A stretch of 64,000 nucleotides of DNA from Terriglobia bacterium (lineage in GTDB: Bacteria > Acidobacteriota > Terriglobia > JAIQFV01), in assembly GCA_020073085.1 (NCBI GenBank), contig JAIQFV010000003.1, forward strand, positions 248,001 through 312,000, given 5' to 3'. Positions within the stretch are counted from its first letter, which is position 1, and each line of letters opens with the position of its first letter. The notes below the pieces were generated by a model. It ran no database searches and had not been told where the DNA came from. It saw only the letters and a list, made by a program, of their open reading frames with translations. The position numbers were made by a program, and so were the translations under genes. This document shows, piece after piece, positions 40,919 through 42,455 of the stretch.

Positions 40919-41251
40919 CTAGTGCGAGTCCTCGTAAGAGGTCAGGCTGAGGGAGGAATGGACCACGGCCGCGCCGGCACGCAGGGCGGCAGCGACCCAG
41001 ACCGCTTCCATCACCTCCTGTTCCGTAGCCCCTGCTGATTTGGCCCCCCGCGCATGAATGTCGATGCACGCCGGGCATTGGGTGGTATGAGCAACAGCAA
41101 CCGCAATGAGTTCCTTGGTCTTTCGGGAAAGGGCACCTTCGGCCATGGCAGCCTTGTCAAAATTCACGAAGGCTTCAAAGGCAACGGGGGTGATCTCTTT
41201 CGCTTTTACAAATTTAGTTTGCTCAGTCTGCTTGTAGAATTCGCGGGGCAT
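40919..41251 (-). CDS. AhpD/carboxymuconolactone decarboxylase-like protein
   Basis: About 110 residues from MPREFYKQTEQ, with AAAGGAG well placed upstream. The CMD core is complete: TKELIAVAVAHTTQCPACIDIHARGAKSAGATEQEVMEA has the CxxC and the His of the AhpD proton relay. Such proteins act as small thiol peroxidases or AhpC reductants. The CPAC motif here is ordinary, in contrast to the Cys-x-x-stop motif of the related gene 600 bases upstream. Confidence 0.9.
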   Translation of the reverse strand: MPREFYKQTEQTKFVKAKEITPVAFEAFVNFDKAAMAEGALSRKTKELIAVAVAHTTQCPACIDIHARGAKSAGATEQEVMEAVWVAAALRAGAAVVHSSLSLTSYEDSH

Positions 41252-41320
41252 GGCCTCTCCTTTTGGTTTTGGACTCATTTCGAGATGATCGCTTCGCGGG
41301 CCGTCACACGGACCGTGGAC

Positions 41321-41845
41321 CTATTTCGATTCCGGCAAAGATGAGGACGTGTGATCATGGACAATCTTCCATCCCGGCGCCATGCCTTCTGGCGAGCCCG
41401 GAAATTTCTGCAGGATAAGCGTGAAGATTCCCTGTGGTTCATCCCCCGCACGCTTCAGCAGCCATCTACCCAATACCCACGCGGCAACCGGCGCGCCCTT
41501 CTCAGAAGAAGAAGTCGGAAGGAGATGGATCTCTAAATCACTGAATGAAAGCTCACCCATTCGCGCGTGATCGGGATAGGTTGCCTTATATTGCTTGAGC
41601 GTCTCCTGCCAGCCGCGCCGGATTTTCCCCCCGCTCGTAAAGAGGAGCTCCCGGGAATTCCAGTAACCCTTCATGAATTCTTCGATATCCCCATGATTCC
41701 AGGCAGACACCTGGGTCTCAAGGACAAGTCGAATCTCGTCCTGAGGGGACCGGGCAGGGACCGCAGGAGAGCTGGCCGGCCATGCACTGACCTGACTCAG
41801 AACGCCAACCCCCAACACAAAGGCAATTGGAAGAAATCGTCGCAT
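41321..41845 (-). CDS. Secreted NTF2-like (DUF4440/SnoaL) protein
   Basis: 174 residues with a signal peptide (IAFVLGVGVLSQVSAWPAS). The mature part opens with DEIRLVLETQVSAWNHGDIEEFMKGYW and ends with APGWKIVHDHTSS, the usual NTF2-like cone fold of the DUF4440 group. Function of these proteins is generally unknown. Its ATG is only four bases after the stop of the putative selenoprotein gene, so the two are likely translated from one message. Confidence 0.75.
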   Translation of the reverse strand: MRRFLPIAFVLGVGVLSQVSAWPASSPAVPARSPQDEIRLVLETQVSAWNHGDIEEFMKGYWNSRELLFTSGGKIRRGWQETLKQYKATYPDHARMGELSFSDLEIHLLPTSSSEKGAPVAAWVLGRWLLKRAGDEPQGIFTLILQKFPGSPEGMAPGWKIVHDHTSSSLPESK

Positions 41846-41849
41846 GACA

Positions 41850-42455
41850 TCACTTCACTTTCTCGGGATCCGGGATCGTCAGATCCGCCCCGGACTGCGG
41901 GGTAGGAACTGTCGCAGGGGTGAAGGGTTCCGGTTCCACGCCTAAGGCATCGGCAAGGCGCGTGTAGTAATTGAAGAATCCAGCCACCTGGACGACGTTC
42001 AAGATGTCCTCATCACTTAACCCCTTGGCGCGCAGTTCTTCAATCGTCAATGGGCTGATGGAGTGGACCTGTTTGGTGACCTGAACTGCGAAGTCGAGCA
42101 TCGAGCGGACGCGGTCTTCCAGCAAGAGCATGCGATAGTCCAGTTTAATGAGCCTGACCAACCGGTCGTCATGGGTGAGTTGACGGAGATCCTCTCCGTG
42201 TGCTTCCGTTCAATAAACACAACCCGTCGTTTTAGAAACCACCACAGCGATCATCTCGCGCTCGGTCCGGGAAAGGCTCGAGGGGCCCAGCATGATCGCT
42301 TTGTAAAGATTAATGGAGGCGTGCAGGACGTCGGGATTCAGACTCTGTGCCGTCACGATGTTGAAAACCCTGCCCACGCGCTCGAGGGCTGCTTCGAATT
42401 CTTTCTTGAGTCTTCCCGTTGCGCGTTCCAAGGAAATTGTCTTGATCCAGGTCAT
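41850..42455 (-). CDS. Putative selenoprotein, peroxidase-related AhpD family, in-frame TGA as Sec
   Basis: Reading through one TGA (42210-42212) gives a continuous 201-residue protein. The N-part has NPDVLHASINLYKAIMLGP and LSRTEREMIAVVVSKTTGCVY; then comes the TGA; then TEAHGEDLRQLTHDDRL, and LSDEDILNVVQVAGFFNYYTRLADALGV. This is the peroxidase-related AhpD-like family (TIGR01926 type), whose active site reads C-x-Y-C-x-x-x-H-G. The TGA stands exactly at the second Cys, giving Cys79-Val-Tyr-Sec82 with His at +4. A perfect hairpin follows ten bases later (separate entry). No other frame defect is present, and the downstream half is fully conserved, which argues against a dead gene. A simple nonsense mutation or base-call error cannot be excluded; no sel genes are in the window. 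Confidence 0.82.
42183..42199 (-). promoter_or_regulatory. Candidate bacterial SECIS hairpin
   Basis: On the coding strand ACGGAGA, loop GGA, TCTCCGT makes a perfect 17-base stem-loop. It begins ten bases after the TGA codon and its loop carries two G. The minimal E. coli fdhF SECIS is also a 17-base upper stem-loop about eleven bases after UGA with G in the loop. The bases also encode conserved HGEDLR residues, as is normal for bacterial SECIS. Confidence 0.75.

Follow-up and report, generated by a model that had tools for sequence, protein, structure and literature searches.

The in-frame TGA at positions 42210-42212 of the window (the whole 64,000-nucleotide stretch of Terriglobia bacterium DNA analysed here, which comes from a draft assembly) is very probably decoded as selenocysteine (Sec; probability about 0.95), and the AhpD-like gene that carries it would then be intact rather than broken. 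As argued from sequence, this reading draws on the conservation of the TGA, the presence of Sec machinery in the genome, a fitting hairpin, selection past the TGA, the protein family and the active-site residues. Every computational check proposed with the original prediction, in which the codon is decoded by SelB and tRNA-Sec, came out in its favour.

Gene structure and genomic context

41850-42455, minus strand: predicted AhpD-like / peroxidase-related selenoprotein gene, full length; 201 codons plus TGA stop, translated with TGA as U
42210-42212, minus strand: predicted Sec codon TGA, residue 82, replacing the second Cys of CxxC as judged from the homologue column
41321-41845, minus strand: next gene, DUF4440-like (below the Pfam cut-off), with its ATG at 41845, 4 bases past the stop of the Sec gene

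The selenoprotein frame runs from 42455 to 41850 and consists of an ATG-initiated stretch of 81 codons in all, the TGA (42212-42210), a further 119 codons and a TGA stop. In line with the original prediction, a 201-codon frame is thus interrupted once, at the position of the second redox Cys; the strand, which had been left unstated, is minus. Around the in-frame TGA the translation reads TTGCVY-U-TEAHGEDLR, the family pattern being C-x-Y-C-x3-H-G. A six-frame scan for TGA codons with 60 or more open codons on either side returned a long list, in which no other site had C-x-x-TGA within a conserved protein, and the observation is well above chance. A standard gene caller, for which TGA is always a stop, would split the gene in two, an error that the present reading corrects.

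The start of the next gene four bases beyond the true stop was also as first described, and this DUF4440-like gene and the Sec gene are probably co-transcribed; the same order of the two is found in the locus of a same-genus relative (L054). This same-genus sister shares the gene order around the locus but lacks a small CxxC CMD gene (40919-41278). In the window this CMD/AhpD-like gene, also on the minus strand, is the second one downstream from the Sec gene, and elsewhere in the three genomes compared (that of the window, the same-genus G001 and the same-family G002) its only matches are about 30% identical.

The codon at the Sec column in homologues

Of the 30 homologue loci from the class (window included), nearly all have TGA at the column; a few have TGC or TGT, and one, the same-genus relative, has TGG. 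When 399 genomes of the class were surveyed, a close homologue turned up in 32 (the window's own included), with a TGA inside 30 of the 32; the only matches lacking it were those of G001 and G002. Of 18 further loci, 17 were checked directly at the Sec column, and every TGA inspected sits at this column. Within this acidobacterial class the predicted AhpD-like CxYU selenoprotein is widespread. In a set of 80 named relatives drawn from many phyla, 59 have Cys at the column, 20 have TGA and one has TGG, with no other residue or stop; the TGA share is an underestimate, because one of the two search patterns could not match TGA. In the lineages sampled, TGA homologues come from Acidobacteriota, Chloroflexota, Actinomycetota, Planctomycetota, Armatimonadota, Gemmatimonadota and Bacillota. 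The expectation that an alignment would show Cys or TGA here was thus borne out, and the close relatives carry no other disruptions, the sister gene being intact with Trp at the site.

Could the TGA nonetheless mark a pseudogene or a sequencing error, in which the TGA arose from a Cys or Trp codon and cuts the protein short at residue 81? The TGA is one transition away from the TGG of the sister, and the first 81 codons alone would yield a short product. Against this, dozens of independent genomes have a TGA at this very column, and the evidence from selection and from the hairpin given below also speaks against it; we consider such a defect very improbable.

Apart from these close homologues, a second, more distant group of CMD paralogues in the class (L040, L041, L044, L046 and L047) has the motif CPFU, with TGA at the same column, and is apparently another AhpD-like selenoprotein subfamily.

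Sec machinery in the genome

The genome from which the window comes (G000; 5.8 Mb, 98.7% complete) encodes all four of the components named in the original prediction: a tRNA-Sec with anticodon UCA (71.9 bits), SelB (390.9 bits), SelA (563.3 bits) and SelD. The SelD gene itself has a TGA at the active-site position (L135:1531-1533, on G000:C2; AAGUAAKIGP), making SelD a selenoprotein in its own right and an internal positive control for Sec decoding. The SelD genes of G001 and G002 also have an in-frame TGA at this active-site position, and SelA, SelB and tRNA-Sec are kept in all three genomes.

The TGG of the sister G001 at this column would also fit a reading of UGA as Trp, whether by genome-wide reassignment or by near-cognate read-through. 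The presence of the Sec machinery and of a hairpin speaks against it, as does the occurrence of Cys or TGA, not Trp, in the other homologues. Moreover, UGA does not seem to be generally reassigned, because long ORFs in the window still end most often in TGA (21 of 38); on this count reassignment was rejected, and UGA read as Trp is the least probable of the explanations considered here.

The predicted SECIS hairpin

42183-42199, minus strand: predicted minimal bacterial SECIS hairpin ACGGAGA-GGA-TCTCCGT, with a perfect 7-bp stem and GGA loop

In keeping with Sec decoding, a hairpin begins 10 nt past the TGA, its loop beginning 17 nt past it. The bSECIS model describes a loop of 3-9 nt, a stem of 4-16 bp, a G in the first two loop positions, a loop located 16-37 nt after the UGA and an MFE of at most -7.5 (PMC13188914). 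The window hairpin agrees with the published model in every respect (loop of 3 nt, GGA; stem of 7 bp; 17 nt; -8.4 kcal/mol), so that the earlier description of it as SECIS-like stands; its energy was matched by only 0.5% of synonymous-codon shuffles. A search with Rfam at the gathering threshold found no SECIS within the window.

Across 19 TGA homologues, 92.8% of cells at the stem positions are paired, with one compensatory change from G-C to C-G; loci L070 and L156 carry this compensatory pair. Covariation is slight, as the nearly invariant stem is largely fixed by the protein sequence. Most close TGA homologues share the window hairpin, often with an eighth pair, and more distant ones have other hairpins, some of them weak. 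When the shuffle test was applied to 21 TGA-containing genes, synonymous shuffles matched the best hairpin fairly easily in about half of them; given this and the differing hairpins of the distant homologues, the test is strong only within the subgroup that includes the window gene. In the relatives that have lost the TGA the hairpin is broken, with energies of -0.3 kcal/mol in the Trp sister G001 and -1.0 kcal/mol in the Cys relative G002. Among the nearest relatives, the SECIS is thus kept only where the TGA is kept, a pattern at odds with a pseudogene or sequencing error.

Selection on the gene

Comparison with the same-genus orthologue (83% identical) gave a dN/dS of 0.205 for codons 1-81 and of 0.075 for codons 83-180; inclusion of the variable C-terminal tail (181-201) brings the downstream value to 0.167. 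The conserved part past the TGA is under strong purifying selection, with a constraint no weaker than that on the first 81 codons, which a gene truncated at residue 81 does not account for. When changes were polarised with G002, the window branch had 5 at codon positions 1 and 2 versus 20 at position 3, and the stop-free sister branch 17 versus 14 (Fisher p 0.013). For this contrast p was 0.024 with L056 as the outgroup and 0.004 where both outgroups agree; most of it stems from codons 1-81, and the codons past the TGA do not reach significance by themselves. Amino-acid relative-rate tests point in the same direction but depend on the outgroup (2:9, 1:9, 5:7 and 4:9).

The TGA-bearing gene of the window is better conserved than its stop-free sister, again the opposite of what a broken gene would suggest. 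A pseudogene or sequencing error was rejected on the recurrence of the TGA, the selection past it, the hairpin and this contrast between branches.

Probable loss of Sec in close relatives

If the TGA does encode Sec, its nearest relatives record how Sec may be lost. At the Sec column the same-genus G001 has TGG (Trp; L054:3244-3246), together with the broken hairpin, and the same-family G002 has S-x-x-C (L055:3244-3246), in which the first Cys is lost and the Sec position is Cys (TGT). In the tree, the window protein groups with its Trp sister (both starred), then with the S-x-x-C relative and then with two Sec homologues, which together form a starred clade nested within a larger, mostly Sec clade. 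On the simplest reading, Sec is ancestral in this clade and was kept in the window, with TGA changed to TGG in the sister and to TGT in G002; an ancestral Sec would count further against a defect in the window gene.

It is somewhat more probable than not that the sister has been caught in the act of losing Sec to Trp, by the single-base change UGA to UGG, with the SECIS decayed, the machinery kept and the ancestral Sec retained in the window. The rate of amino-acid change appears to be raised in G001. If true, this loss would contrast with the usual exchange of Sec for Cys, and a limited literature search found no report of a Sec-to-Trp replacement in the AhpD-like family, which is not proof of absence. 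A point against the Sec reading is that the CxxU site is not essential in the family, as Trp in the same-genus relative and S-x-x-C in the same-family one show, so that the redox role may be dispensable here. The same-genus pair, with TGA and hairpin in one member and TGG and a broken hairpin in the other, provides a natural control for the minimal requirements of a SECIS and for selenoprotein loss.

Protein family and predicted function

42255-42257, minus strand: codon of Glu67, predicted proton-relay glutamate, invariant in alignment A1
42219-42221, minus strand: codon of Cys79, predicted partner of Sec82, the C in CxYU of homologues
42198-42200, minus strand: codon of His86, predicted relay histidine, invariant in alignment A1

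The predicted protein is a member of TIGR01926 (NCBIfam, peroxidase-related enzyme; 155.2 bits against a cut-off of 81.8) and matches PF02627 (CMD) in Pfam. The label of AhpD-family peroxidase in the original prediction is right at the family level, and the reaction is a prediction. Membership of COG2128 (AhpD-like 1) is something we infer from TIGR01926 and the CxxU motif. Against NF041238 (AhpD_rel_CFYUT) the protein scored 54.8 bits, below the cut-off of 175, and membership of that family was rejected because the score is too low. The nearest solved structure, 2pfx (E 1e-33), has Cys at the Sec position, and sequence homology to solved structures is decisive for the fold.

The AhpD relay residues are kept as Glu67, Cys79, Tyr81, Sec82 and His86, with exactly the spacing of the proton relay of PA0269, which consists of Glu36, Cys48, Tyr50, Cys51 and His55 (PMC3141380). 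PA0269 showed weak H2O2 peroxidase activity (PMC3141380). An AhpD-like, peroxide-linked function is one that we regard as probable. Sec might instead serve in a protein that is no peroxidase, be it an oxidoreductase acting on thiols and disulfides or on something else, or a CMD-fold protein with a different activity. In favour of this, TIGR01926 members are named only 'peroxidase-related', AhpD-like family members have no known substrates (PMC3141380), and W or SxxC replaces the site in family relatives. With the relay spacing exactly that of AhpD and of the weakly peroxidatic PA0269 (PMC3141380), such a non-peroxidase role is possible but the less likely of the two.

In the mechanism that we favour, a ribosome reaching the UGA at codon 82 would receive Sec-tRNA(Sec) from SelB bound to the hairpin, and with Sec inserted, translation would run on to the real stop. 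The product would be an all-helical redox enzyme of the AhpD-like TIGR01926 type with the active site Cys79-x-x-Sec82 and an AhpD-type proton relay from Glu67, Tyr81 and His86. Most likely it would reduce peroxide, or act as a thiol/selenol reductant for a peroxiredoxin, via a Cys79-Sec82 selenenylsulfide. Here we infer Sec insertion itself as well as the substrate and the reductant.

Comparison with known systems

As the original prediction noted, Sec has already been reported in CxxC-type AhpD-like proteins: the first account of AhpD-like CxxU selenoproteins, based on the Sargasso Sea, dates from 2005 (PMC1088965), and in the GOS survey of 2008 AhpD-like proteins were among the most numerous families, with 299 AhpD-like 1 and 70 AhpD-like 2 (PMC2398784). 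Because of these reports, the window protein would belong to a known kind. With the Sargasso/GOS AhpD-like CxxU family (COG2128, YciW-type) it has in common the CMD/AhpD fold and Sec at the second CxxC position (PMC1088965, PMC2398784), and in both a bacterial SECIS lies directly downstream; those selenoproteins are marine, whereas the window comes from an acidobacterial (Terriglobia-related) soil bacterium. What is unusual is that the sister genome, which still has the Sec machinery, shows a change from Sec to Trp together with decay of the SECIS.

Among individual families, NF041238 (hypothetical protein 1, Sargasso Sea) shares the C-x-Y-U-T motif and distant homology with the window protein, but its model spans 357 positions, compared with 201 amino acids here. 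The Cys forms of TIGR01926 (for example PDB 2pfx and 3c1l) have the same relay residues, with the window protein having Sec, not Cys, at residue 82. Finally, AhpD of Mycobacterium tuberculosis and PA0269 of P. aeruginosa share with it the relay spacing Glu-x11-Cys-x-(His/Tyr)-Cys-x3-His, from which the window protein departs in having Sec for the second Cys; overall similarity to them is only distant (2o4d, E 2.7e-6).
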